A stretch of DNA of 64,000 nucleotides from Selaginella tamariscina (Eukaryota > Streptophyta > Lycopodiopsida > Selaginellales > Selaginellaceae): assembly GCA_003024785.1 (NCBI GenBank), contig PUQB01000054.1, positions 24,211 to 88,210 of the forward strand, in the 5' to 3' direction. The notes under the pieces were generated by a model that was not told the origin of the DNA, did no database searches, and worked only from the letters and a program-made list of their open reading frames with translations. Positions 11,401 through 59,124 of the stretch are shown here, piece after piece. Made by a program: the position numbers and the translations under genes. Numbering within the stretch: position 1 is the first letter of the stretch; each line of letters starts with the position of its first letter.

Positions 11401-11845
11401 TTCACATTCTCTTTTTTTTTTGCCCTTGAGGAGTCAGTTGTTCTAGCATCAGTGGACTTTTTGGACAAAGATTCTGTACCATTAGTGTTGCTATGCTTAA
11501 TATTCAATGTCCACAGAATGCAAAGTTAAAGCCATCTTTGGATGAGGTACGGGAAGTTCAAAAGGTTTGAGCCTTAGATTTGAAGGCTTCGTGATGGGTT
11601 TGAGAATCCTACATCACTTTTGATGACTTACCTTTCATGCATTTACATATCGCCTTTAGGACGACCTTCTTTATTTTGTGGGGACTAATCCAGATGATCA
11701 TTTACGGTTGGTAGTGCCTTTGATCTTTGTTCCATCTTTACCATGACTTTCCTTCTCGACAGGCACATGAGACATCGTCGTGTGATGGAAAAGCTGCGTA
11801 GATCTTTTTATTGGCCAAAGTTGTGAGGAGTTGTGATTCAAATAT

Positions 11846-12637
11846 GTGCGTAGTTATGTATGGTGCCAAGCTCGCAATACTCCCTCGTGTACTTTGGAAG
11901 GACGGTTGGAGTCAATTGCAGTTTCTCATTCATTTAAGTTGGTGGCATTTGATCTGATGGAACCTTTTCCGCGGTCGACTACTAGCAATGAGTACGTTAT
12001 TATTGCTTTTGACTACCTAACTCGTTGGGTAGAAGTTGGTGCTCTTGTTAGTGCAACTGCTTCTGCTGTTGGTCAATTCTCCTTAATCGGGTTGTGTTTC
12101 AGCATTCTTGCCGGAGCGAATTCTCTTAGACAATGGTCCTACATTTATGGCCAAAGCATTTCATGTCTTGATGCACACTTTCACAAGTGCTTATCATCCT
12201 TAGACAGATGGTTTGGTGAAACGGCTCATCTGAACCTTAAAGGGATGATTGCGAAATATGTGAATTTTCAATATTCGGATTGGAATGATTATCTGCCGTC
12301 TCTCCGATATGCTTATGTCACTGGAGTACAAAGTTCCGTTGTTACTTCCCCATATAAGCTCTTGTATGGTCATGACTCAGTGTTGCCAATGGAGTTGTGT
12401 CTGCCTTCTCGATTACTACGAACTGCTGATGCTCGGTCATGGGATCGGTATCTGATGAACATTCTTCCATTGGTTCGTGCAGAGTCAACAGAACACTTAG
12501 GCCACGTACAAGTAGGACAACAACAACGCTATAACTCACACCATCGTCCTCCTGCAGAGTACAAGGTTGATGAACTGGTGTTGGTTTGTTTTCCTAAGCT
12601 TACAATACGTGGTTTAGTTAAGAGTCTCCTTCCTTAA
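11846..12637 (+). pseudogene. Gypsy copy 1 integrase remnant
   Basis: Longest surviving frame of copy 1. It begins in the HHCC finger (SYVWCQARNTPSC) and runs through the integrase core (VAFDLMEPFPRS, FDYLTRWVEVGAL). It then slips through frame-altered sequence before resuming at KGMIAKYVNFQYSDWNDYLPS and the C-terminal VDELVLVCFPKL region. The DDE core is interrupted: the segment that should hold the second Asp is out of frame. Comparison with 25109-25963 shows the same protein. Not functional. Confidence 0.75.
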
Positions 12638-15146: not shown

Positions 15147-15156
15147 CTCGCTATAC
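15147..15156. repeat. Target-site duplication, left copy
   Basis: CTCGCTATAC, identical to 24072-24081, immediately outside the GGG terminus of the transposon. Confidence 0.85.
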
Positions 15157-15270
15157 GGGTTGACATTTCCTCGAGCGCAGTTTGCCGAGCGTACGGATTT
15201 CCGTCATACCGGAATATTCCATTCCGTACAGAATATTCGTTTTCATATAAAGAATATTCTGGTGCGGCGG
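15157..15270 (+). repeat. Left terminal/subterminal inverted repeat
   Basis: Starts GGGTTGAC, has TCGAGCGCAG at 15171-15180, GATTTCCG near 15195, then three GAATATTC palindromes (15212, 15231, 15252) and GGTGCGGCGG at 15261. The reverse complement of the right end has the same blocks in the same order. Confidence 0.8.
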
Positions 15271-15461
15271 GCGGGCAATCATGGCGGCACGGTAATGTGT
15301 CAAAGTTTCACAAATTTGGGGGTTAATCTGACATATATATTTATATATTTATATTTATATTTATGTTTTTATTTTTTTAATATTTATATTTATAACTATA
15401 ATTATATTTTTATATAAATACCAGCATCAAACTAAATAAAAACAATAAAAACATAACTCAA

Positions 15462-18400
15462 TCATGAAGACTCGTTTCCACCAGCCAGTGCCTCGTCGTT
15501 AATGAATGCATTGTTACGGTGTCGTGAACGTTTCTCCAAAATCTGTCTGTCGTAAACTTCGAACTCTTCAACCATTTTCTTTGCCATCTGATTAGCGTAG
15601 TCTGGTAGAACAATACTGAAAACATATTAAAGTTTAAAACCAAAGAAATGATAAAACAAATCTCACTCATCATCTGATGACTCGTATGATCTCTCTTCTG
15701 CTGACTCATCTGATGACTCGTCGTTGTGCTCCACGGACTTCTCCGTAACAACATCCTTGTCGTTTCGAGAAGGCGGATCCTGGTCTCCATCGTTGTCGCT
15801 AGCCAAAGGCAAATCCTGTGCTTCTGTTTCCATGGCCCTCTTCCACTCATCAAAAGGAGTAATCATGGAAACAACTTGATCATCCCCACCACCTTCAGCT
15901 GCTGTAACACTTGGAATGACCTTCCTGAAGACATCTCTGGCTGCTAAAACCAGATCCTTGTTGATGTCGATTCCATAACCATGTCTCCCTGTGTGAAAAG
16001 CTGCAAGAATACTAGCACCGGTTCCCACTGTTAGATCCACAACAGTTCCACCAGGCTTTGTGAGCTTCTCCACTAGCATCGCAAACAACTTGGGAGATTT
16101 CGGGCCAATTGAAATCCTGAAAGTTACAATATTAGAACATGAGAAATAACAAACAACATTATACCATGGGAGCTGGAAATCTTCTGGCTCATCAAAAAGA
16201 AGAGTGTAGCGAGTGTCCAAGATCTCCTTGTTCTTGGCAACCTTAGAGTAGGGGGAACCAAAAATACACATGGCAATGATGCTTTCCTGAAAAAATAAAC
16301 ATTAAAAAATGACATTCTCAAAAAGAAGAATTACCTTTCTAGAGAAACGGTATCCCCATGACTTTGTCGTGTGCACATAACTCATCTGCAGAAACTTTAG
16401 CTTGCAAGTTTCTGCAGTGTTCTTCAAAGCTAGAACATCATCCGGTAGCACAAACACTACCACATGGCCAGCTCTGTCTAATATCCCGAAAGCAAGGTTC
16501 ACCAAGTTCTTCAGCAAAGCATCCGAGAACTTCGTGTATTGATCCACCATCCCGCCTGCCTCAGCAACGCATCCGGTAGGCGGGTCGATGACAACGAGAT
16601 CAACAGCTCCCTGGATGCATTTTGGTGGAGGCTTCGCACCAAACACATGAATAGTCCAACTTGACTTGTGACTCACGATCCAATCCTCAAGCTCCTTCAA
16701 TCCTGACGGAAAAGGCCTTCCGGCTTTGAAGTACTGGACTGCAAGGTTCTCTGAATCTGCATGAATGATTTCCCAGCTTCCATTTCCCTTCTCAGGCATC
16801 ACCATCCTCAACATATCATCTTCTTCCAATCCAGCCGAGATGAAGGATGGGGCTGAAGAAGAAGCTTGTCCCTTGCTGACCTTGCTCGCCGATCTAGCAT
16901 ACCTGATATCCATCTTCACATGGAGCTTCCTTGCAGCATTGTCGTTCTTCCATAATAGCTCTCGCCGATCATCCTTGTGTATCTTATAGCTGGCCATCTC
17001 CCATTCGGGACAGTCACCAGGAAGGAAATCCAGCCAGAAAGGACAGTGTTCCACTTCGTAATCACTGATATCACGTAACAACCGGCTCCACATGCTAGAA
17101 TCCTTGGTAACATCCATCCACTCTTTGAAATCTTCAGGGAGTGCATCGTTCTTCCATTTTAAAAACCTGTAAAAATAGATAAAAATCTGTAAAGAAACAA
17201 AAAAAAAACTTGCCTGAATGCCATTCTTTTTGCAGATTTTTCCAGCTCAAATAGTCGAGGAGGTGGAATTGTCGCACCGAACTCCTTGTTCTCGAGCATG
17301 TTCTGGTACATATCCAACTTAATTTCATTGTGCATCTTCATATACCATGTCATGAACTCCTCTACATGCTCGACCAAAAGCTCTTTAGCTGCCTCCGCGA
17401 CCTGGCACGATAAAACGAATAAAAATGAAAAATATAAATATTAAATTACCTGGAACCAGTAAGTAAAGATGTGCAAAAACTTGATGAAGTCCTTGTCAGG
17501 CCAGCCGGTGACACCTTCCTTCTTGTCTTTCTCCGTCATGTTCACCAGCTTCTCAAGAACGCCACGTTCTTGAATGTGCACAAGCTTTCCAAGGATATCA
17601 ACCTTGACGTTGGAAGGAAGCTGGGACTTCGCGAGCATTTGAAGCTTCTCCAGAGTTATTTGCTTCGTTGATGGTTTGATAGTGATATCTGTGATCGCCT
17701 TGAACCAATCTTCACCGACCGCCGGATCAGCAATGGTGAGGAATTTGTTCATCCGAACTGTGAATGTCTTGTAAACGCTGGAGAGGATCTGAGATTCTGT
17801 CTGGTTTGGTTTTCTGTTCGCAAGTTTTGTAGCGATTTGTCGCTTCAGTTGATTCTGCAAAAGAAACCGAAAATCAAAAAAAGTCAAAAGAAGAAGAAAA
17901 GATTACCTCCCAAAAAATCTTCACCAATGTCGTCTTTGGATACTCGTACCAAACGTCTTCTTTTCTGTTCGATCTCCACACTTCCACAGCTTTTCTATCT
18001 TCCTCCGGCATCCCGCGAAGAACATGATCGGTAGAAAGATCTGCAGACTTCACACAACAATTCCGTAAGAACTGCAAGGTGTGAATGATTGTTGTAGGAA
18101 CCACACGAGCAGTTGCTCTGCAAAACAAAACAACATTTATTTAGTATTTAAATAATGAAACAAACAAGTCACTTACTCATTCAACCGATTGCAAGCAGCG
18201 ATTAGTCTCTTCTCCTCTTGCACTGTGGATGCTATGAGTGTTGCACGTACACGCAAAGTCCATTTCAAACCTGGCTCTTCAGCAAGCAAAGTGTTCAAAG
18301 CAACCCGACGATGATTCCCATCCCACACCAGAAACTTTGCATCTTTCAGAAATCGATACCATGCAGAAAATGCTGGCTTATGCAAATCCGCTTCAAACTC

Positions 18401-19093
18401 TCTATCGACCTGTGCTTCTGACTCATTCCAACTTCGGCGTTCGTCTGCACTCAGCTGTGGTCCGAAAGATAAGGTGAACACTGACGTCTCCTGGTAAAAT
18501 CCTTCAGCTCTAATCCATCCAACAAGGTCTTTCACGCCGTCCTTAGTGACATTCCTCAAACGTTGGTGTGGGAGCAACCTGTGAACCGGGATACGCGGAG
18601 GCTCACCAAGCTCAACTGGAACGTAGTGGTCTCGTCCTTGTAGCGATGTGTCAATATCTGTGTCATACCGAATAACAAGATCCCGAAGAAGCTTGGATGG
18701 AGCCTCAAGTGTCAGCCGCTCCGGAATTGCATATGATTCGGCAACATCCTCAGGAGCATCCAGTTTCCTCTTCTTATTGAACATTTTACTACCAAGATCA
18801 ATATCCGGTACTTCCTCTGCATTACCGTGTTCTGCAGAGCTTCCTGCAATCTCCCTATTTCTAGGCATCCATTCACTCACCACAGTATGTTCATCAATGA
18901 CTTGCGAACTATCCACAGGTTCATTGTTCGTCGGCATCATCTCTTTGTGTTGCAGTTGTTGCTTGGCGCCTCGGCCTCCTTTCTTGCCACGAGGTTTTGG
19001 AGCCATATCTGCAAGAGCTTCTTGGACGATATGTTCTTGAAGTGTCAAAGTCTTGTATTTATCTCGTAGTCTCTTACTCTGCCTTTGTCTCAT
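15462..19093 (-). CDS. ParB-like domain fused to beta-class DNA amino-methyltransferase (transposon cargo)
   Basis: Eight coding exons (18177-19093, 17907-18117, 17450-17854, 17214-17401, 16335-17166, 16165-16286, 15667-16116, 15462-15615) join without a frame break into 1,092 residues. Residues about 165-306 form a ParB/sulfiredoxin-like domain with WDGNHRRVAL near 257-266 (the ParB G-x-x-R type motif). A helical middle follows, then methyltransferase motif IV as VVIDPPTG near 765-770, motif X (KSPKLFAMLVEKL) near 900 and motif I/II (DLTVGTGAS, YGIDIN) near 920-945. IV before X and I is the beta class of N4-cytosine/N6-adenine methyltransferases. The usual aromatic after DPP is Thr, so activity is unproven. 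The C terminus is acidic and Ser-rich. The lineage looks phage/bacterial; introns show long residence in a eukaryote. A 5' non-coding exon probably ends at 19802. Confidence 0.8.
17167..17213 (-). other. GC-AG intron in the methyltransferase gene
   Basis: Exon ends TTCAG and the intron starts GCAAGT, ending ACAG at 17167. Using the nearby GT (AGGCAA/GTTTTT) instead leads to a stop within the next exon, so the GC donor is supported by the reading frame. Confidence 0.7.
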
Positions 19094-19426
19094 TCTGCAA
19101 TTACAACAACTGATAAGTGTGTGTGTGTGAGTTGTTTTAATTTATGGACACACATTTACTATATATGTATACCTATCAATATATATAGACACACACGCAC
19201 ACACACACATATTTATACGTGTAATGTTGTTTGTGTGTGTGCTCACTATATAATGTTCCTTGTGTATGTGTGTAATGTTGATTATGTGTGTGTGTGTGCA
19301 ATGTTGTTTGTGTTTTGTGATGTGTCTGTGTGAGAGAATATGGGTATATTCATATCTCTTCACATGTATATACAGACGAAAAAGCATCATCTCATATATA
19401 CAAGTCTTAAATTCATATACTTATAC

Positions 19427-19427
<1 letters not shown>

Positions 19428-19474
<47 letters not shown>
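19428..19474. repeat. (ATAC)n/(AT)n microsatellite
   Basis: ACAT units followed by about 35 bp of pure AT within the methyltransferase leader intron. Confidence 0.9.
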
Positions 19475-19479
<5 letters not shown>

Positions 19480-19590
19480 TTTTAAGTATGTATTTAAATA
19501 TATATATTTATATTACACACACACATGTATACAAGTCTAATGTTGTATAATCATACGTGTGTAAAATGTTATTTATGTGTGTGCGCAAAA

Positions 19591-19662
19591 ACACACACAC
19601 ACACACACACACGGATTTCCTGCCCGAATTGGCAGGAAATGTGTGTGTGTGTGTGTGTGTGT
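19591..19662. repeat. Long inverted repeat: (AC)n - 10-bp arm - 6-nt loop - arm - (GT)n
   Basis: ATTTCCTGCC (19615-19624) and GGCAGGAAAT (19631-19640) pair across a 6-nt loop, and the flanking (AC)11 and (GT)11 pair as well, interrupted by a GG/GG mismatch. A second small palindrome TTGCCGA-AA-TCGGCAA follows at 19662-19677. It would form a strong hairpin in the transcript or DNA. Confidence 0.75.
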
Positions 19663-19860
19663 TTGCCGAAATCGGCAATAACTCATGCGTCGGAGGTGTG
19701 TGTGTGTGTGCACACGCGCGTGCGTTTGTGAATACAAAGAAATCCTACTGAATTTGCACATACATTCACAGAAATTACTATACACATATATAAGATTTTA
19801 CCTGTAGCCATGTCGCCGTGACGCTCACACTAGCCTCTTGTCGCCGCAAAAAAAAGAACA

Positions 19861-20486
19861 AAAGTGCCCTCTCTCAACAATGGAGAATGGAGAAGAAGAA
19901 TGGGTAGTCCTGAACCTTTACCCTAAAATCTAACACTTAACCCTTTGACCCTTAACTATAAAACTGTGTTTAATTAAACCATACAACAGTATATATAATA
20001 CTTACGATAAATAACATACTATATAAAAGGATACAAATACAAACACATATTTAAGTAAAAATTTGTATGTTAAAAAACATATTATTATATAATTAAATAA
20101 ATATTCGTGTAAAAATATGTATTTATAATTGACAATTGGTAGCGGAGCAAGTATTAATCAACATCTACATTTGATAAAATACTGGATCAAATAACTATAT
20201 AATTATAATAAATAAATTAACAGAATATAAACAAGTCATAAATAAATATGTCAGATGAATGTAGATTAGACACACATTTATTTAAAAGACAATAAAGATT
20301 GCTCTATCTCTACGTGAAGTGCTATACTATATTAGCATCTAAGATCTATACGTTTCCTTGAATTAAATATTCGCCCACGTTGAGTCATGATTGTGAATTT
20401 TTGAAATGGTAATATCCGATATTTACCAAAAGATGATTAAGTAATGCTGTTGTTTTTCTGTCACGTTTGTGGTAACTGCTTGCAAA
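19861..20486. promoter_or_regulatory. Divergent promoter region of the transposon
   Basis: About 620 bp of AT-rich DNA between the presumed start of the minus-strand leader and the transposase ATG. No other gene is seen; it must hold promoters for both cargo genes. No individual box was assigned. The GAATATTC motifs of the termini are absent here. Confidence 0.5.
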
Positions 20487-23400
20487 ATGGCCAGGATTGT
20501 TTACGGCAATTTGGATCACGATGTTCCTGTGATAGATGGTGTTGGAATCATTCTTACTAATCAGATTAGAACGTTCTTTGGCATTTTTGATTGGCAAAGT
20601 GTTCGTCTTTTTAAACTTCTTCATGGGCAATCTGCTTTACAGATCGAAATAAACGAGGACCAAGATGCTGGAGGGAAGGATAATCCAGGATATGTTTTGT
20701 TACCGGATGAAGGACCATTGTTTAAGCTTGTCGTTGCTTCTGACTCTGAATACTCAACGTTGAAGAACCTTTTCACTTCTAATACCTGCAAAAAGGGAAG
20801 AATTCTTATCGAGGGTTCCACGATCATTCATACAAATGAATTGCCTATTGCGTATGATGGGGATGTCATTTTTGAGCTCCCTCCTTCCGAATACAAATAC
20901 AAAGGAATGAATCGGAAAGAGGATGGACATACCTGGACAGCAGGAACGACCAGCAACTGGAATTTTCAAGCGAGGGTGTCCAGGAGCAAATGTGTTGGGA
21001 GCCTTTGCTGTATCAACCCGGACTGCCCTGCTTCTAAGGCAGGATTTCCGAACTGCACTAAATGGAAAGGATGTATTGTTTCCCCACCTTCAATCGACAA
21101 ACTGGCAAAAGGATTGACATGTTTTTTCTGTAAAGAAAATCCATTGTGCCTTGAAGTTTGTCATGCTGTGGCGTTTTGCGTTTTCCCAGACGACATAACC
21201 AAGACTAGATTGTTTATCCACCAGGGAAAACATTCACATCCAGTGGGTGATGGTGTTTCTGCATCGAACAAAGAAGAAATGCATATGGCGGTCCAGAATG
21301 CAACAGAAAGAACTCCCAGAGCTAGTCCAAGAGTCATCGAAATGGCAGCATGTAAAGATGCTATCTTTGGTTTTCTATTAGATAATTCTGAGCCTGGAAG
21401 TTGGGATAAGCTCATGGATCATTTGCAACCATTATCAAACAATCGAAGGTACAATTAGAGTTTTACTTTGTGCTGAGCATTCTTTGATAATACCTTTGAT
21501 GCAGAGTTCGTCAATGGGTAGCGTCCGCAAAGAGAACTGCTGCTGAAATGCCAGAGAATATTGATGGATTATTGGAGCTGAAACGAAGGTTGTCTATCCC
21601 ATTCATCCACGTGATTCACTATCCTGGGATGAATTTCCGTGGTTCAGACGACCAGGCATTAGTTTTTAAGATGACGGTTTCAGGGCCAGGTTCTGGAATC
21701 GATTATGTAAGGATGTGCCAACCTCCTCTTGGCCCTTTGCAGAAGAGTTGGGTTCTACTTGATCACACACACCGTGTTGTTGATAAGTGGATCACTCTGG
21801 CATTGCATGTTTACGACCCAAAGTAAGATGTTATCTTTTTGTTGTTTGCTTAACTCTTTGATTATTTTATAGTGTGCGCCGATTATCCACCATTGCTTAT
21901 GGTGACATGAAGAGACAAACGGCTGGAGCTGTGGAGAAGTTTTTTCGTGCTATGTTGGATGTCTGTTCCGAGAAGGGAATCTACAATGTGCAGTTCGCTG
22001 GGTTTATGTCCGATGAAGCAGGAGCGATCTGGCAAGCAATTAGGAATGTGTTCTTTAATGGCCAAGAAATTCCTGGACGTGAACGGAGCTGTATCTTTCA
22101 CTATGAACAAGCCATACAACGTGTGACAAGGAAGTGGGTCCCTCTTGAACATCAACAACAACATCTTCAACTTTTGAGATCATGGCCAACAGCCACATCA
22201 ACAACTGATCGTGAAGAAATTGAAAATAATCTTTTCCGCTTTTGGAATGAAAATGTGAAGGATGTTGGAGTTATGCAGACGTGGTTTTCATGGTGGGAAA
22301 GACAGAAGAATCATATTTCAAATGTTGTTCTTGAAAGCATGCCGGAGAATGCTGCAAGGGTTGTGCCCATGACAAACCAGTCGGAGTCTGTTCACGGAAG
22401 ATGGAGGAGGGCTAGAGATTCAAAATACATTTCATTGTACCAAGCTACAATCCACGACCTGACTGAATCAGTGCGACAATGTGCTCTTGTGAAGGCTTTT
22501 AGAGATGGAAGGTATAGTGGTTCCGGGCCGACTTCAGAGGAGCTCTCAGCAAGGTTCGAGAGAAGAATGTCAAATGCTAACTCAACAACACCTACAGCAA
22601 AGGTTATCATCGACTTAGTTGAAGATGTTGCTCCATCAAGCATGCAGGATACTGCTTTTGTGGCTGCCACGAATGTTGAACATCGCACTGTGCAAAGAAA
22701 TATGGGGTCAGAGGCTGAACGATCCCACCGACCGGACATCTTCTATAGTGAACAGGTTATTCCAACACAGTGTAGACGGAAGCGACGATTGGATTTTCAA
22801 CTTGCAGAAGAACATGAAGAATATGTTCTGGTTGAAGAACAAGATGTTACACCTGGACAATGGGCGATTAGAAGATGTGGTGAAAGAAGTTCTGTGAAAT
22901 GTCTGGCAGGCTTTCCCTCTTCAGGAGGTCAGTGGAGTGCTTGTGACAAAAAGATCAGTCCTAGTGGTAATCGAGTGGCTGCTCCTTGTTTTTTTGGAAG
23001 GATCAGATACAATGACAAAGAAACTGGTGAAGAATGCTTTCGCTCACAAATGATGTATTTTTGTCCAACAAACATGCTTTGCAACAGACATCCAAGACCA
23101 ACTATTGTTTCTCCGCCAGCTTCTACCTCGGTTTGGAAAGTTCAAGTGGGCACGAAGCTGATAGCAATGGAGATCAATGATCTGGCAAGATCAGGTTTTA
23201 TGCTAGCTGGGCTTCCTTCAGCTCATGCAGGAGTGCCAGGTTTTTCAACACCTCATGTTCCTTCAGTTCCTGTTGGAGTCACTGGATTTTCAACACCCCC
23301 TGCACAATTTCGTGGACCTCCTGTTCCTGCAAGTGGTCGTGCAACAAGAACACCTTTAGGGATGTCTAAGAAACAACAGGTAAGTTTTGAAGCATGTTTG

Positions 23401-23706
23401 ACGTTGGGAGCATATGTCGCAGAAGTTGACGTGGTTGATCCTCCAACATGCATTCGCTTCAGAGTATGTGACAACGACCATACATCTGCTTGGGTTGTCA
23501 TTTGTAGCGCACCATCTTGTTCATGCTCGGAGTTCTGCAATGGTCGTCAGTGGGTGCCTTGCAAACATATGTATTTTGTTTACAAGCGTGTACTGGGAGC
23601 TGATCCTCGAGTTGTCAAGCATTTGCAACGTCGTACACTTGCACCCCGTGAACTAAGTTCTTTATTGATGCTACCAAGGAACCTCCATCCTCCACCATCT
23701 ATTTAG
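20487..23706 (+). CDS. MULE-like DDE transposase with zinc finger and SWIM domain
   Basis: Three exons (20487-21448, 21505-21822, 21873-23706) join in frame to 1,037 residues. ATG 20487 is the first in-frame ATG. Residues about 150-280 hold many Cys/His (KCVGSLCC, CFFCKENPLC, HQGKHSHP), a WRKY-GCM1/FLYWCH-like DNA-binding finger. The catalytic core follows: Asp about 407 in VLLDHTH, Asp about 474 in FMSDEAGAIWQAI, then the MULE-typical C-x2-H (CIFHYEQA, about 500-503), and a candidate Glu about 598 in NQSESVHGRW. Near 975-993 CSCSEFCNGRQWVPCKH gives the C-x-C-x(n)-C-x-H of a SWIM finger, common in MULE and related transposases. A 350-residue linker with a Pro-rich repeat (VPGFSTP/VTGFSTP) lies between. 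No stop or frameshift: potentially active. Confidence 0.85.
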
Positions 23707-23883
23707 TGTGTTTGGTTTGTTTTCAAACAGCTTCGGTTTTATATTTGTTATTTCAAACTTATAATTTTCAATATAAATTTTAATGGTAATTTTATGTTTA
23801 GCATATTTTTAAGTAATTTAACATATATTTTCTTTAAATACAACAAAAATATACTACCATATTTTGTATGCGGCCGCCGCACT

Positions 23884-23918
23884 AGAATATTCTAGAATAT
23901 TCTTGAAAATTTTGGAAG
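23884..23918. promoter_or_regulatory. Seven-unit heat-shock-element-like array
   Basis: The sequence parses as alternating pentamers nGAAn/nTTCn in perfect 5-bp register for seven units, with a single mismatch (TTT for TTC in the sixth). This is the heat-shock-factor binding consensus. It lies 180 bp downstream of the transposase stop codon, inside the right subterminal repeat. It may instead be a transposase binding site; both readings are inference. Confidence 0.5.
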
Positions 23919-24003
23919 GTCCAATTGTGTGTACACTTGGCAGTACGAAAAATTTCCGTACAGAATATTCGAGGATATCTAGACGGAAATCGTACGGAAC
24001 AAC

Positions 24004-24023
24004 GGAATATTCAAGAATATTCG
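24004..24023. promoter_or_regulatory. Four-unit heat-shock-element-like array
   Basis: GGAAT-ATTCA-AGAAT-ATTCG: four perfect alternating nGAAn/nTTCn units close to the right terminus of the transposon. Confidence 0.5.
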
Positions 24024-24071
24024 GAAATCTAGGTCAAGCTCGTTGACCTGCGCTCGAATTTCGCCGTGCCC

Positions 24072-24081
24072 CTCGCTATAC
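24072..24081. repeat. Target-site duplication, right copy
   Basis: CTCGCTATAC, identical to 15147-15156. Confidence 0.85.
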
Positions 24082-25108: not shown

Positions 25109-27446
25109 TTATTGTCTTACTTGTACGCAGCCCAAGTGTTCTGCTGACTCCGCACGAACCAATGGAAGAATGCTCGTCAAATACCGATCCCATGACCTAG
25201 CATCAGCAACTCGCAATAACCGAGAAGGCAAACCCAACTCCGTTGGCAACATCGGGTCATGACCATACAAGAGCTTATATGGGGAAGTACCAATGGAACT
25301 TTGAACTCCAGTGACATAAGCATATCGGAGAGATGGCAGATAACCATCCCAATTTAAATGTTGAAAGTTCACATACTTCACGATCATCCCCTTGAAGGTT
25401 TTGACAAGCCGTTCCACTAAACCATCTATCTGAGGATGATAAGCACTTATGAAAGTGTGGCGTATCCCTACAAAACATGAAATGCAGGACCATTATCCGA
25501 GAGAATTCGCTCTAGACAAGAATGCTGAAACACAACCCGATTAAGGAGAAACTAACCAACAGTAGAAGCAATTGCACTAACAAGAGCACCAACTTCTACC
25601 CAACGAGTTAGGTAATCAGAAGCAATAATAACGTACTCGTTGCCAGTAGTTGATCACGGAAAAGGTGCCATCAAATCAAATGCCACCAACTCAAATGAAC
25701 GAGAAAACTGCAATGGACTCCAACCGTCCTTCCGAAGCACATGGGGGAGTATTGCGAGCTTGGCACCACACACAGCTACGCACATACCGAATCACATCTT
25801 CTCGCAACTCTGGCCAATAGAAAGATCTGCACAGCTTCTCCATCACCCGACGGTGTTCCATGTGCCCGCCAAGAATAGGAGAGTCATGGTAAGCATGGAG
25901 GAAGCGTGGAACGAAGACTGAAGGCACCACCAACCGCAATGGATCATCTGGATCAGTCCTCACAAAATAAAGAAGGTCATCTTAAAGGCAATACTGCGAA
26001 TGTAAATGCCTGAAAGGCAAGTCATCAGCAAGTGATGCAGGGTTCTCAAACCCATCATGAAGCCTTCGAATCCACAGCTCAAGCTTTTGAGCTTCCTGAA
26101 CCTCATCTAAAGATGGCAAATCTAACTCTGCATTCTGCGGACACTGAATGTCAAGCACAGCAACTGCTGATGGTATGGAATCTTCGTCCAAAAAGTCCAT
26201 TGAAGCTGGAACAATTAGTTCCTCTGAGGCAACAGAAGAGAGAGAAGGTGGAAGAGGAGCCCGAGAAAGAGCATTAGCATCATCTATGAAACTTCCTGGG
26301 CGATGAACAACTTCAAAGTCGTAAATTTGAAGTTTCAAGGCCCACCGAGCAGTACGACCAATCAAATTCTTCCGCTTCAACAACAAAGTGACTGCTGCAT
26401 GATCACCTTCCAACAACGTCTGCGAACCATGCAAGTAGGCATGGAACTTCTTAAAACCCCAAACTGCTACTAGACACTCCTTTTTTGTCGTGGAGTAATT
26501 CACCTTTTGCTGGCTGTAATGTACATAATGTACGCAATGGGATGTCGTTGGTCAGGAACACTCGTACTCTCCTACATCAATACGCCCCCAAGGCCAATGT
26601 CAGAAGCATCTACACGCAAGATGAAAGACGGGTGTAATCCGGGTATGCCAAAACTGGAGGAGTAGTCAACAACTCTTTGAGATCTGCAAATGTCTGCTTG
26701 CAATCCTTAGACCAAACAAAAAAAGTCAATGACAATTTCAACAATGCGCGCAACAGTGCAGTACGATCTGAAAGATGATCCACAAAACGACCCAGATATT
26801 GTACCTTGCCAAGAAAGCATTGCACCTCATTCACACACTTTGGCGTAGGGAACTTCAAAACTGCAACCAGTTTGTCAGGATCGACTTGCAAACCTTCACG
26901 TGAAATGCGATAACCCAAATAAGTAGTGTCCTTTGATCCAAACACACACTTAGATGGCTTCAACTTCAAACCAACTTCCCACAGCCGATCCAAAACCTTA
27001 CGTACATCACCGACATGCTCCTCCCACGTTCCATCCGAATGGATCAAAACATCATCGATGAAATTGGCAGTCACCTCCGGCATGTCGCAAAGAACCTCGT
27101 CCATCATACGCTGGAAAGTTGCTGGAGCATTGCTCAAACCGAAAGGCATCACCAAGAACTCATACAGGCCAAATGATGTCCGGAAAGCAGTCTTGGGAAT
27201 GTCCATGTCAGCCATCGGAACTTGCCAATATCCAGATGCGAGATCTAACTTGGTGAACCAACGGCTCTGCCCCAGTCGATCCAAAAGGTCTACAGTATGA
27301 GGAAGTGGGTACACATCTGAGACGGTTACCTCATTTAATGGGCGATAGTCAATGCAGAATCGAATGTTCCCATCAAACTTCGTCACGAGGTGAGGTTCGC
27401 ACGCCCAAGGACTCCGAGATTTCCGGATAACACCCTTCTCCAACAT
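25109..27446 (-). pseudogene. Gypsy copy 2 pol: RT, RNase H, integrase
   Basis: Minus-strand frames in order: RT 26610-27446 (SPWACEPHLV, FCIDYRPLNEV, catalytic FIDDVLIHS), RNase H 25982-26503 (YSTTKKECLVAVWGFKKFHAYLHG), and integrase with its zinc finger (25691-25963, GGHMEHRRVMEKLCRSFYWP, CVWCQARNTPPC) and core end (25109-25417). The integrase C-terminal basic region follows at 24893-25078 (ELVLVRFPKLTVRGLAKSLLPQWKGPYRVL, broken here for length). RT uses F-I-D-D in place of the common Y-x-D-D, as does copy 3. The frame changes between domains, and the central integrase core is damaged near 25420-25690. Confidence 0.85.
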
Positions 27447-27570
27447 CTCTTTGACATTCGCTCATAAGATCTTGAACTCCTTTGGTGACTGACGCAGAAC
27501 AGGTACCTTGATTGGCCTAGCATCTCCAGTTGGAATAGGGTGGCGTGTCGCAATCTTGACAGCACGACGA

Positions 27571-32433: not shown

Positions 32434-33254
32434 ATGCCCAGCACATTCACTCGGTTGATGACTGAGGTGTTTGGTGACTACTTGCATGACTTTGTGGAGA
32501 TCTTCCTCGACGATATTCTTATTTACAGTAAGAATATGAAGGAGCATGTGGAGCATTTGCGGAGAGTTCTTCAATTGCTGAGGGAGAACAAGCTCTATGC
32601 AAAGAAGAGCAAATGTGCATTTGCTCAGTGCGAAGTGGAGTATTTGGGTCACATTGTGACGCCAAGTGGAGTGAAGACTGATCCACAGAAGGTGGCAGTG
32701 GTGGAGCAATGGCCAGTTCCTAGCAATGCACAAGAGTTACGGAGTTTCTTGGGCATGGCTGGTTATTACGGCGGTATGTCAAGGATTATGCCAAGAAAGC
32801 TTCTCCGTTAACTAGGTTGCTAAGGAAGGACGTTCCCTTTGCATGGAGTGCTTCAGAGGAGAGCAGTTTCCAAGCTTTGAAACAAGCTTTGGTACGTGCA
32901 CCAGTTTTATGTATTGCAGATCCCTCTAAGCCTTATGAGGTATCGTGTGATGCAAGTGGAGTGGCCATTGGAGCTGTACTTATGCAAGAGGGAAGGCCTA
33001 TTGCTTATGAGAGTCGTACTTTGAATCCTGCAGAGCAACGGTACTCAACGTATGAGCAAGAACTACTGGCTATTGTTAATGCATTACGAGTTTGGAGGCA
33101 CTATCTTTATGGTGCAAGTTTCAAGGTGTTTACAGATCACAAGCCTTTGGTGTATCTGTTCACACAGAAAGAGTTAAACTCTCGGCAAGCTCGCTGGATG
33201 GTTAAGCTCATGGAGTTTGGCGAATTTCCTATTGAGCATCGCAGGAAAGGCTAA
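32434..33254 (+). pseudogene. Nested gypsy RT-RNase H
   Basis: RT motif FLDDILIYSKN at about 32505, EYLGHIVTPSGVKTDPQKV, then (after a frame slip and a local deletion near 32770-32816) RNase H with FAWSASEESSFQALKQAL, VSCDASGVAIGAVLMQ and YSTYEQELLAIVNALRVWRH. The catalytic residues of both domains are visible, but the frames are discontinuous. Confidence 0.8.
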
Positions 33255-40958: not shown

Positions 40959-41346
40959 ATGATTGCTATCTCTGGATCTCTCAGAAAGGGATCCTTCAAC
41001 GCCGGCCTCGTTCGTGCAGGTTTTGTGTGCGTGCGTGCGTGCGTGCGTGCGTGTGTTAACAAATTACTAAAATTCAGCTGCGGAGATTGTTAAGGAGAGT
41101 TTTCAAGATGTGCAGCTAGAGCATGTTCCGATATCACAACTGCCCATGTTGAATACCGACCTTGAAAACGGAACTCAGTATCCAACGCCTGTGGAGGACT
41201 TCAGAGCCATAGTTCGTTCTGCAGATGCTGTGTTATTTGCAAGCCCAGAATACAACTATTCCGTCACAGGTAAAGTATGTATGTACATATTACTACGTAT
41301 ATGTCTATTTCCTTTGCATATATGACATCCCCAATATATACTCCTG

Positions 41347-55592: not shown

Positions 55593-56411
55593 CTATCCTC
55601 CCCTCTGCGGCTGTGTAGATGGTGATGGATCTGATGGTCCTGGATCCGTGTGAGCTGGGCCATCTAAGGTATGACCAAATGTACTCAACGAGTCTCGAAC
55701 GACAAACCGTTTCATTCGAACCACGTGAACTATCTCAACCTCATGAGATCCCACCAACTTTACTTGATATACCTGAGGACCAACCTTTCGGAGTACTCGG
55801 TAGGGACCAAGCCACTTGTGTAATAAACCAGTTGCAAGCCCAGGTGCAGTCAGCTTGGGAAAACGTACCAGGACTAAGTCACCGTCAGCAAAATCTGGTG
55901 GAATTTGATGTCGTGCATTGTAAGAAGATTGCTGCCGCATTTGAGCTCGACCAAGATGTTCAGCAGACTCTGCACGCAGAAGAGGCAAAACAGCATCCAA
56001 ATGTCGAGCCCACATCTTTGCATCCTCGGCACGTGGCAGATTCGATGATAACCCCAATTCACTAGGCAACTTAGGATCATATCCATACAATGCCTTGAAT
56101 GGAGAGATACCAATCGAACTCTGAATGCCTGTTACATAAGCAAATCTCAAACATCGCAAATACCAATCCCAGTCCGTGTGATTGAAGTTCACATACTTCG
56201 AGATCATACCCTTGAAGGTCCGATTCAATCGCTCCACCAAACCATCAGTTTGTGGATGATACGGAGAGGCAAATGAATGTTTTACCCCTAACCTCTCACA
56301 CAACACTCGGAATACCTCTGCAATGAAAGCGGGGCCATTGTCTGATAACATCCGCTCTGGACAAGAATGCTGCAAAACCACATTATCGAACAGAAACAAA
56401 GCTGTTGACAT
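55593..56411 (-). CDS. Gypsy copy 3 integrase core and C-terminal region
   Basis: 272 residues: ERMLSDNGPAFIAEVF (second Asp of DDE), SFASPYHPQTDGLVERLNRT (catalytic Glu), RLRFAY-type core end, then the basic tail DLVLVRFPKLTAPGLATGL, LGPYRVLRKVGPQVYQVKL. The first Asp (AVDLMGPFPRS) lies upstream at about 56516 in a neighbouring frame (56383-56616). No chromodomain was recognised. Confidence 0.9.
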   Translation of the reverse strand: MSTALFLFDNVVLQHSCPERMLSDNGPAFIAEVFRVLCERLGVKHSFASPYHPQTDGLVERLNRTFKGMISKYVNFNHTDWDWYLRCLRFAYVTGIQSSIGISPFKALYGYDPKLPSELGLSSNLPRAEDAKMWARHLDAVLPLLRAESAEHLGRAQMRQQSSYNARHQIPPDFADGDLVLVRFPKLTAPGLATGLLHKWLGPYRVLRKVGPQVYQVKLVGSHEVEIVHVVRMKRFVVRDSLSTFGHTLDGPAHTDPGPSDPSPSTQPQRGG

Positions 56412-56632
56412 GGCAGTTGCATCCGGAAGAGCACCAACCTACCCATCGAGTTAAATAATCGGATACAACAATGATGTACTGGTTACCTTGAGAAGAACGT
56501 GGAAAAGGTCCCATTAAATCCACTGCAATTAACTCAAAAGGGCGAGAGACATTGATGGATTCCAACACCCCATGGCCCGAGTCGTAGAGGAATTCCGAGT
56601 TTGACAAGTGGGACAACTTTGAATATACCTGA

Positions 56633-57589
56633 TCACATCACCACGCATGCTTGGCCAATAAAATGATCGGCGCAGCTTCTCCAACACTCGTTGTGACCAA
56701 GATGACCTCCAACAATAGGTGAATCATGATATGCTCGAAGAAGGTGTGGAACATATGTAGAGGGTACAGCCAAACGCCATCTGTCCTCTGGATTTGTCCC
56801 AATAAAATACAATAAACCATCCTGAAGTCGAAACTGAGCATGATATTGTCGAAACCGAGGTTCGGAAGACGGAATTGCAAACGCATCGCGTAATTGCCTC
56901 GTCCATGGTTCATGTTTTTGAGCATCCTGCCACTGTTCCAAGGATGGTAAGTCGGCATCGAATACCTGAGGGGCTTGTATCAAACCGAATGCTGCAGCTA
57001 CTGCATGAGCAGGCAAAGTGGAATCGGAGAGGGGTGCTCGAGAAAGTGCATCCGCATCCACCATTGTTCGCCCAGGCCTGTGCACCACCTTAAAGTTATA
57101 TACCTGGAGACGTAATGCCCATCTGGCTACGCGACCCACTAAATTCTTCCGTTTTAATAAGGAAGTGACAGCAGCATGATCACACTCCAAAAGTGTTTCA
57201 CTCCCATGTAAGTAGGCATGAAGTCGTTCAAAACCCCAAACAGCAGCAAGGCATTCTTTTTCAGTAGTGGAATAATTCCGCTCAGCCGGCGTGAGTACTC
57301 GACTAATGTAAGCCACCGGGTGTCGAATTGAAGAATCCACAGCATCAGTTTGCATCAATACACCACCAATACCAACATCTGAGGCATCTACTCGTAAAAT
57401 GAACGGACGAGTAAAATCTGGGTATTGAAGCAATGGTGGAGTTGTCAGGAACTCTTTTAACTGGTCAAATGCCTGCTGACACCTGCGAGTCCACCTGAAA
57501 GATACCTGTGGCCGAACTAACTCCCGAAGAGGGGCAGTTCGATCAGTGAGATGATCGATGAATCGACCCAAGTACTGCACCGTGCCCAA
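56633..57589 (-). CDS. Gypsy copy 3 RNase H and integrase zinc finger
   Basis: 318 residues: YLGRFIDHLTDRTAPLREL (RT thumb), RVDASDVGIGGVLMQ with the first RNase H Asp, YSTTEKECLAAVWGFERLHA (catalytic Glu), HRPGRTMVDADALSRAPL (final Asp) and the integrase finger start YHDSPIVGGHLG. The frame is lost inside the HHCC finger near 56670. Confidence 0.9.
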   Translation of the reverse strand: MGTVQYLGRFIDHLTDRTAPLRELVRPQVSFRWTRRCQQAFDQLKEFLTTPPLLQYPDFTRPFILRVDASDVGIGGVLMQTDAVDSSIRHPVAYISRVLTPAERNYSTTEKECLAAVWGFERLHAYLHGSETLLECDHAAVTSLLKRKNLVGRVARWALRLQVYNFKVVHRPGRTMVDADALSRAPLSDSTLPAHAVAAAFGLIQAPQVFDADLPSLEQWQDAQKHEPWTRQLRDAFAIPSSEPRFRQYHAQFRLQDGLLYFIGTNPEDRWRLAVPSTYVPHLLRAYHDSPIVGGHLGHNECWRSCADHFIGQACVVM

Positions 57590-58427
57590 GAAACGTTGGA
57601 CTTCCTGTACTGTACGGGACGAGGAACTCTCGAACAGCTCGCAACTTCATTGGATCCACCTGTAAACCCTCTCGAGATATACGGTAACCCAAGTAAGTGG
57701 TGTCGGTCGAACCAAACACACACTTTTCAAGTTTCAACTTCAGGCCAACTTCTCGAAATCGATCAAGAACGCGCCGTACATCACGAATGTGATCCTCCCA
57801 AGAACCAGACCCATGAATGAGCACATCGTCGATAAAATCGGCAGTGATATCAGGCATATCGGAAAGAAGCTCATCCATCATGCGTTGAAAGGTGGCAGGA
57901 GCTGAAGTCAATCCAAAAGGCATGACCAAAAACTCGTAAAGACCAAATGGTGTCCGGAAGGCCGTTTTTGGAATATCCTCCTCAGCCATAGGAACCTGCC
58001 AATATCCTGATGCCAAATCCAACTTAGTAAACCATCGACTCTGACCCAAACGATCTAATAGATCGGCAGAGTTCGGAAGTGGATAGACATCTTTGATGGT
58101 AACATCGTTAAGAGGTCGGTAATCCACACAAAATCGGAGAGATCCATCAGGCTTGGGAACCAAATGAGGTTCACATGCCCATGGACTCCGTGACGGACGA
58201 CACACTCGTTTACCAATCATATCAGTAACAGCTGTTCGCATGGCTGATAACTCCTTTGGTGACCTGCGTCGAACCGGGACTTTGAAAGGCTTTGCATTGC
58301 CGGTGGGTATACAGTGTCGAGTCTTCACACGTGCACCTTGGGACAGATCAAATTTGAACAAACTTGCATACTGTTTCTTAAGTTGTTCGATGCAGTGTGC
58401 TCGACACTCAGGTGACGGATCCGGCAT
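57543..58427 (-). CDS. Gypsy copy 3 reverse transcriptase segment
   Basis: 294 residues covering the whole RT palm: RSPWACEPHLVPKPDGSLRF, VDYRPLNDVTIKDVYPLP, FTKLDLASGYWQVPM, FRTPFGLYEFLVMPFGL and the catalytic FIDDVLIHG, then YLGYRISREGLQVDP. No internal stop. A one-step frame change near 57590 separates it from RNase H. Confidence 0.9.
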   Translation of the reverse strand: MPDPSPECRAHCIEQLKKQYASLFKFDLSQGARVKTRHCIPTGNAKPFKVPVRRRSPKELSAMRTAVTDMIGKRVCRPSRSPWACEPHLVPKPDGSLRFCVDYRPLNDVTIKDVYPLPNSADLLDRLGQSRWFTKLDLASGYWQVPMAEEDIPKTAFRTPFGLYEFLVMPFGLTSAPATFQRMMDELLSDMPDITADFIDDVLIHGSGSWEDHIRDVRRVLDRFREVGLKLKLEKCVFGSTDTTYLGYRISREGLQVDPMKLRAVREFLVPYSTGSPTFLGHGAVLGSIHRSSH

Positions 58428-59124
58428 TTGAACCTGTTGAGATGAACACCCCCAAGACCGGAATCAAAGGAGCTGTATGCGTGATACAAACAGCAACAAA
58501 CTTCTCTGGACGTAAAGGAACAGACTGCAAAGACACAGACTCCAAGCGTAATACAGGAGGAGAGAGTGAAAAATCACATGTACCTTTCGACTGCTTTAAC
58601 CAATCACATCCCAGAATGATGTCAAAGACCTGGGAAGGGACAACCCTAAGAGACCCAGAGGGAAACTTACAGTTGGCACCCATAACCAGTGTAGTCGAAG
58701 TGGTGTACTGTGATACTGCACGAGACTGCCCATTACCATATAAAATGTGCAAGACCTTATCTGCTCGTCTCAAGGGTAATGAGCACCGATGCGCCAGAGA
58801 AGTAGTTATGGAAGACATGCTAGATCCTGTATCCACAAGTACTGTGACTGAAACATCATTCACTCGTGCAGAAAATGTGAAAACTGGATGATTTGGTGGA
58901 ACTTGCAACCCTTGATATGCATAGCGAAAAAACATGGAGGTGGAGTTTCCATCGCACGGGATCCCTCCGTCGCCCGTACGATTACTGGTTTTCCGCAACA
59001 GATCCACCGCAAGAGAAGCGTCATCATCTGGAAGCTCATCATCAGACATAATGGCCGCCACAGGTACACCATCCGGAACATATGGTCGCCAGCCTGGATG
59101 TGGTGGACGCCAATCAGGATACAC
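58408..59124 (-). CDS. Gypsy copy 3 aspartic protease segment
   Basis: Open frame of 238 residues with VLVDTGSSMSSITTSLA (D-T-G-S catalytic motif), then a VFDIILGCDWLKQSKGTCDF block conserved in plant gypsy proteases. It continues from gag after a frame change and leads into RT in another frame. Confidence 0.85.
   Translation of the reverse strand: MYPDWRPPHPGWRPYVPDGVPVAAIMSDDELPDDDASLAVDLLRKTSNRTGDGGIPCDGNSTSMFFRYAYQGLQVPPNHPVFTFSARVNDVSVTVLVDTGSSMSSITTSLAHRCSLPLRRADKVLHILYGNGQSRAVSQYTTSTTLVMGANCKFPSGSLRVVPSQVFDIILGCDWLKQSKGTCDFSLSPPVLRLESVSLQSVPLRPEKFVAVCITHTAPLIPVLGVFISTGSNAGSVT

Follow-up and report, generated by a model that had tools for sequence, protein, structure and literature searches.

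The 64,000-nucleotide stretch of the Selaginella tamariscina genome analyzed here (contig PUQB01000054.1, positions 24,211 to 88,210; hereafter the window) contains a DNA transposon in which a transposase gene is paired with a second, divergently transcribed gene for a protein with a ParB-like part and an amino-methyltransferase domain. Both genes lie in one repeated, target-duplicating element and the pair is old, as it occurs in two families whose proteins are about 25–41% alike. Our reading, to which we give a probability of about 0.5, is that this is a recently active two-gene DNA transposon resembling Mutator-like elements (MULEs), and that its second protein would act at copies of the palindrome GAATATTC at the element ends, where it would control either transposase access or silencing.

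The repetitive nature of the element was established in a 300,702,823-base assembly (1391 contigs). Searching with the whole element gave 14 full-length matches (98–100%, window included; best 17 of 275 candidates scored), so that further near-identical copies with both termini and both genes, which the preliminary description had asked for, do exist and support its two-gene transposon encoding a ParB-like and amino-methyltransferase protein. The left flanks were distinct in 34 of 35 cases, window included (300–400 bp compared, 76–183 bp in seven). With the methyltransferase protein as query, at least 98 exon matches were found (best 42 of 2333 candidates scored, matches counted irrespective of element), and these were 79–100% identical save for one 54% piece inside C1045. 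The 951 methyltransferase codons compared are unchanged in 13 loci besides the window, and several other loci differ by small indels only; the window's family therefore probably transposed recently.

The second gene is a regular component of these copies. Among right ends (best 40 of 129 candidates scored; C1141, at a contig end, is for that reason not counted), 38 of the 39 that were testable have the methyltransferase gene in the same element, and the claim thus survives a search for copies whose ends exclude it. At 29 of them, window included, coordinate comparison placed a match to the methyltransferase or to the full-length element on that contig, with suitable spacing and strand (about 15 kb from the right end in C336, about 8–9 kb in the other coordinate-matched loci). 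For ten further right ends the expected place was read, and the gene was present in nine and absent from C838.

The limits of the element and its duplicated target are as follows.

15157–24072, no strand assigned: whole transposon copy, from the 14 full-length same-genome matches (window included) and the end consensus
15148–15156, no strand assigned: left target-site duplication TCGCTATAC, from copy comparison
24073–24081, no strand assigned: right target-site duplication TCGCTATAC, from copy comparison
15157–15180, no strand assigned: left terminal inverted repeat, GGG...TCGAGCGCAG, from the sequence
24048–24072, no strand assigned: right terminal inverted repeat, from the sequence

The perfect 10-bp direct repeat CTCGCTATAC (15147–15156 and 24072–24081) flanks inverted termini that start with GGG, as originally described, and TCGAGCGCAG recurs in inverted orientation at an offset of 15 from each element end. 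The element had been placed at 15157–24071; its left limit stands, but its right limit was moved from 24071 to 24072 because comparison with other same-genome copies gave the consensus termini GGGTTTGAC...CGCCGTGCCCC and put the target duplication at about 9 bp. The window copy, which at its left end has one T fewer than the consensus, thus most likely extends from 15157 to 24072, and the tenth base of the repeat would be the element's own terminal C. A duplication of this size falls within the 8–11 bp typical of MULEs, and defined termini with target duplications in independent copies are those of an autonomous DNA transposon with terminal inverted repeats.

In the comparison of copies with both ends read (which leaves aside C793, whose left end was not read), a shared run of at least 8 bp lies beside both ends in 15 of 21. 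C484 and C521, both among the 15, represent a single site present on two contigs. The run takes in the element's own G or C end bases in C1097, C169, C484/C521, C548, and C1045. The other six copies have shorter runs, of 6 bp in C1 and in C452, 4 and 3 bp in two copies of C481, 4 bp in C550, and 2 bp in C1114; for C923 and C1036 a right end was looked for and not found within the pieces read. Chance repeats were rejected as an explanation because of the full-length copies, the distinct flanks, and the shared flanking runs taken together.

The two genes of the window copy have the following features.

15462–19093, minus strand: ParB-like/methyltransferase gene, 1092 aa, with introns 18176–18118, 17906–17855, 17449–17402, 17213–17167 (GC-AG), 16334–16287, 16164–16117, and 15666–15616
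18070–18613, minus strand: ParB/DndB-like part with DGNHR motif, exons 1–2, limits approximate (DndB 19.6 bits, below cut-off)
15980–17165, minus strand: beta-class N6/N4 amino-methyltransferase domain, exons 5–7, limits approximate (PF01555, phrog_67)
16575–16586, minus strand: position of motif IV, DPPT in place of DPPY, read from the sequence and identical in 30 of 30 loci, window included
16017–16043, minus strand: motif I (S-adenosylmethionine, SAM, binding), VVDLTVGTG, read from the sequence (PF01555 match 897–950)
20487–23706, plus strand: transposase gene, 1037 aa, with introns 21449–21504 and 21823–21872 and an open spliced frame

Both genes are intact and spliceable, as had been noted at the outset, with open spliced frames of 1092 aa on the minus and 1037 aa on the plus strand. 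The methyltransferase gene has seven short introns, one of them GC-AG, and if the sixth is left unspliced its frame is still open (1108 aa). Across the 30 loci compared, one of them the window, the GC-AG intron at 17213–17167 is conserved without exception.

The methyltransferase assignment rests on a PF01555 match of 34 bits (cut-off 26.7) and on the phage profile phrog_67, which matches residues 640–1023 (E 7.6e-11). The preliminary description had proposed a ParB domain fused to this enzyme; the methyltransferase half of that proposal holds, but in searches with a hand-cut segment the ParB-like part does not match PF02195, and the nearest profile, DndB, stays below its cut-off (19.6 versus 29.1 bits, E 5e-4). 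The middle part of the protein, between these two regions, has a fold without assignment. Canonical amino-methyltransferases have a motif IV of the form D/N/S-P-P-Y/F/W. The corresponding residues are DPPT in the window's family and DLPN in two other families (see below), compared with DPPY, so that the usual aromatic residue is missing wherever the motif is readable and the aspartate and second proline are kept. The protein is thus a putative DNA-modification enzyme, with a matching domain and SAM motif and a motif IV that is non-canonical in all three families seen.

No match to the whole methyltransferase protein was found among 8000 scored in a set of 5.8 billion proteins, and its methyltransferase domain gave one weak match there (E 0.04); the transposase exon likewise had no match among 8000 scored. 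At the sensitivity of the tools used, searches of viral contigs (IMG/VR) and prokaryote genomes confirmed no related loci, and tblastn against phage sequences gave no match to the methyltransferase protein. Among solved structures, MboIIA is a weak match to the methyltransferase (E 0.022), and the ParB part and the transposase had unrelated matches only (E 0.32 and 0.92).

The affiliation of the transposase with MULEs is a matter of the target duplication, which fits, and of motifs that we take to be D..D..E with C..H and a SWIM-like CxC...CKH; the family profiles reach it only below their cut-offs. PF10551 (MULE) scored 17.1 bits (cut-off 27.6, positions 2–96 of 99) in a hand-cut spliced D-to-H segment and found no match in the whole 1037-aa protein, while SWIM PF04434 gave a weak 8.7 bits (E 1.7, cut-off 19.6). 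The corresponding transposase segment of the second family described below had no PF10551 match at E up to 1. With a MULE profile built from 20 same-genome fragments, the window's transposase was not among the hmmsearch matches at E up to 50, a threshold at which shuffled decoys already scored; compared with it directly, the same profile was co-linear over 79 columns at a probability of 0.8%, which is without significance, and single-sequence comparison with same-genome MULEs aligned in the wrong register. The genome also holds a different MULE family that matches PF10551 at 95 bits, with the same score at 16 places (G000:C102:183580 and 15 others, L001–L008), and this family is apparently recent too.

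The age of the gene pair follows from related families in the same genome. In a genome search with PF01555 all 150 places scored pass the cut-off (best 150 of 739 candidates), 109 of the 150 share one 106-aa open frame, and none is a known copy of the window's family. Seven of these places were read and all have a methyltransferase gene of the window's kind; the ParB-like part and transposase are visible at L089, the sole place of the seven read far enough. L089 (one of the 109; 9 kb read) represents a second family with a divergent gene pair in the same order as in the window's element. Its transposase is 41.6% identical to the window's over residues 1–772, and its methyltransferase 24.9–27.3% over 116–646 and 25.7% over 761–969. 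The PF01555 match is 39.8 bits and DGNHR is kept; no ParB-superfamily profile match was found at E up to 1. The second family has termini of its own (GAGGATTGGC... and ...GTCGGGACTC), which match in inverted orientation at 13 of 24 end bases without gaps, and in four copies flanking repeats were recognized by eye (8 bp in C681, 8 bp in C547, 8/9 in C639, 6 in C571). Seven of eight further right ends match L089 to its end; L102 (C993) stops earlier.

The six PF01555 places read besides L089, where the pieces hold parts of the methyltransferase gene only, comprise one of the second family and five of a third, related family, whole elements having been read only in the window's family and the second. 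Motif IV is DLPN in the second family; of the five loci of the third, L090, L091, L092, and L095 also have DLPN, and it was not seen in the frames of L093. In the second family, repeats separate the divergent genes (L089 4316–4998), and the window's element has microsatellites (19100–19750) at the corresponding place. Since the second family holds the same two divergent genes at 41% and about 25% identity, the methyltransferase gene looks like an old and conserved part of the transposon and not a chance capture.

The best clue to function comes from the palindrome GAATATTC, which is found near the ends of the window's element at these positions.

15212–15259, no strand assigned: left end sites GAATATTC at 15212, 15231, and 15252, mostly retained in older copies
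23885–24022, no strand assigned: right end sites GAATATTC at 23885, 23895, 23963, 24005, and 24015, mostly retained in other copies

All eight occurrences in the element lie near its termini, within 110 bp of the left end and 190 bp of the right end; the remaining 55 kb of the window contain the palindrome eight times. In 2000 local shuffles there was never more than one in the outer parts, and among 8-mers made of three or more different letters none is more frequent in the window's element. Older copies show single losses (L033, L043, and C1114) and most sites persist. In the second family's copy all five occurrences are likewise at the ends. Because the sites cluster at the ends of both families despite the divergence of the proteins, we infer that GAATATTC is a candidate DNA site recognized by a protein common to both. 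Neither these sites nor the diverged families figured in the preliminary description.

On this basis, one or both element proteins would recognize the palindrome at both ends, and the methyltransferase-like protein would act on these sites, either by adenine methylation or, given its altered motif IV, by SAM-dependent binding. The outcome could be a timing of transposase action on the ends, such as Dam methylation provides in IS10 and host methylation in Ac/Ds, or ends that are kept free of host silencing, as with VANC for VANDAL MULEs. A more specific form of the proposal, that this lineage itself methylates the GAATATTC sites in its ends, on adenine or at N4 of cytosine, and that these marks serve transposition as a replication or licensing signal encoded by the element, seems rather unlikely on present evidence.

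Selective constraint on the methyltransferase gene is suggested by the ratio of nonsynonymous to synonymous substitution rates (dN/dS), which between the window and C1114 is 0.16 (8 nonsynonymous and 14 synonymous changes); this is below neutrality (P 0.0001–0.006 if 65–75% nonsynonymous changes are expected) and is the only clear case. The stronger argument for constraint is that the gene is recognizable and alike placed in families about 25% identical.

Several observations weigh against a functional second protein acting at the ends. The C1114 copy has lost 43 bases from its methyltransferase gene and has four stops in its transposase (dN/dS 0.34), and is for these reasons a dead copy. In other copies dN/dS is 0.43 (L034), 0.49 (L037, with four stops), and 1.52 (L033), or 0.28 (L009) and 0 (L011) from one or two changes each, and the synonymous excess is mostly not significant (L034 P 0.03–0.36, L037 P 0.01–0.52). 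Catalysis may be lost, as motif IV reads DPPT or DLPN where DPPY is expected, and GAATATTC may be merely the site of the transposase. Finally, with the window copy as reference and the direction assumed, the per-site frequency of C>T at CpG is 2–3 times that at other C/G positions in L034, L037, and L038; this hints that the host methylates the element's cytosines, so that any protection from silencing would be partial.

Part of this evidence fits other explanations. The second protein could be a catalytically dead SAM- and DNA-binding accessory with a ParB-like clamp or nicking activity that methylates no base, much like the second transposition proteins TnpD of En/Spm and MURB. This has a real if smaller chance of being correct, since motif I is kept while motif IV departs from its canonical form in all three families seen, yet the phrog_67 match over residues 640–1023 reaches beyond the SAM loop alone, and the motif IV aspartate and second proline are kept wherever readable. 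DNA nicking has been described for ParB domains that are fused to methylases (PMC5512222), which also suits such an accessory. Alternatively, the gene might modify or control the host, marking element chromatin or blocking silencing in trans, and have no part in the transposition reaction. Anti-silencing proteins of MULEs such as VANC exist (PMC5735166), and the additional C>T at CpG in older copies makes silencing pressure likely; the clustering of GAATATTC at the extreme ends of both families, however, is more in keeping with a role at the ends, and we consider control of the host in itself unlikely.

Two further explanations have little left in their favor. MULEs commonly capture genes (PMC6431247), and a host or bacterial methyltransferase gene might have been picked up by chance in one lineage and hitch-hiked in the manner of Pack-MULEs. 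The captured gene of a Pack-MULE would be missing from most related copies, but here the gene is complete, lies in the same element at 38 of the 39 testable right ends, and is common to families about 25–41% alike with the same divergent layout, so that one-off capture was rejected as very improbable. Small indels make up many of the differences between copies, as in long-read errors, which might point to an artefact of assembly or contamination (bacterial DNA or collapsed repeats). Spliceosomal introns in both genes, by which bacterial contamination was rejected, together with the distinct left flanks (34 of 35) and target duplications make such an artefact scarcely credible.

Elsewhere in the window, beyond the element, RVT_1 or RNase H matches mark pieces of retrotransposons (26613–27461, 32724–33251, and 57546–58463). 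Two stretches are integrase-like by eye (11837–12634 and 55596–56438), the former without Pfam match. An exon at 41274–42002 matches FMN_red, the NADPH-dependent FMN reductase type, above cut-off, with chromate reductases among its solved-structure matches, and probably belongs to a host gene.

The closest parallels are MuDR and other MULEs, including VANDAL21 with VANC, which share a duplication of about 9 bp, an accessory gene, and a short motif repeated in non-coding parts (PMC5735166). In the window's element, by contrast, the sites are palindromes confined to the ends and the transposase scores below the MULE profile cut-off. VANC is, to our knowledge, an anti-silencing protein of another kind that has no methyltransferase domain. 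Eukaryotic mobile elements encoding DNA-methyltransferase-type proteins are also found among DIRS retrotransposons, with a Dam-like adenine methyltransferase, and DNMT-carrying retrotransposons (PMC5890265); these differ in being retrotransposons with other methyltransferase classes, and a ParB-like domain is not mentioned in the accessible part of that source. DNA transposons with epigenetic enzymes include KDZ elements with TET/JBP and HarbingerS and oomycete MuDR elements with SET genes, where both the enzymes and the hosts (fungi and oomycetes) are different (PMC12730594). A ParB-superfamily domain joined to an amino-methyltransferase on mobile DNA is described for bacterial ParB-methylases such as Bce_0392 and for phage polyvalent proteins (PMC5512222), which are prokaryotic, unlike this plant element. 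The N4CMT of bdelloid rotifers is likewise a bacterial-type amino-methyltransferase in a eukaryote, but it is a host gene that marks transposons and is not carried by them (PMC8885841).

Among the top matches in openly licensed PMC papers, a search that did not cover Repbase, there was no case, in plants or elsewhere, of a DNA transposon whose partner gene encodes a ParB-like/amino-methyltransferase protein. Mobile elements with epigenetic enzymes are thus already known, and the pairing of a ParB-like/amino-methyltransferase with a transposase is new by that literature; nor is it one odd copy, given two far-apart families and methyltransferase matches at all 150 scored places (best 150 of 739). 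Because the ends reveal a candidate target site, element-driven N6-methyladenine (6mA) or N4-methylcytosine (4mC) in a plant becomes directly testable, as does the idea that transposons of eukaryotes control themselves through methylation of their ends. In IS10/Tn10, through Dam, and in Ac/Ds, it is the methylation state of sites in the ends that governs how the transposase binds (PMC5371812). There the methyltransferase is the host's, whereas the window's element encodes its own candidate; if the more specific proposal of self-written methylation at GAATATTC were true, the element would be a eukaryotic, element-owned counterpart of the Dam control of IS10.

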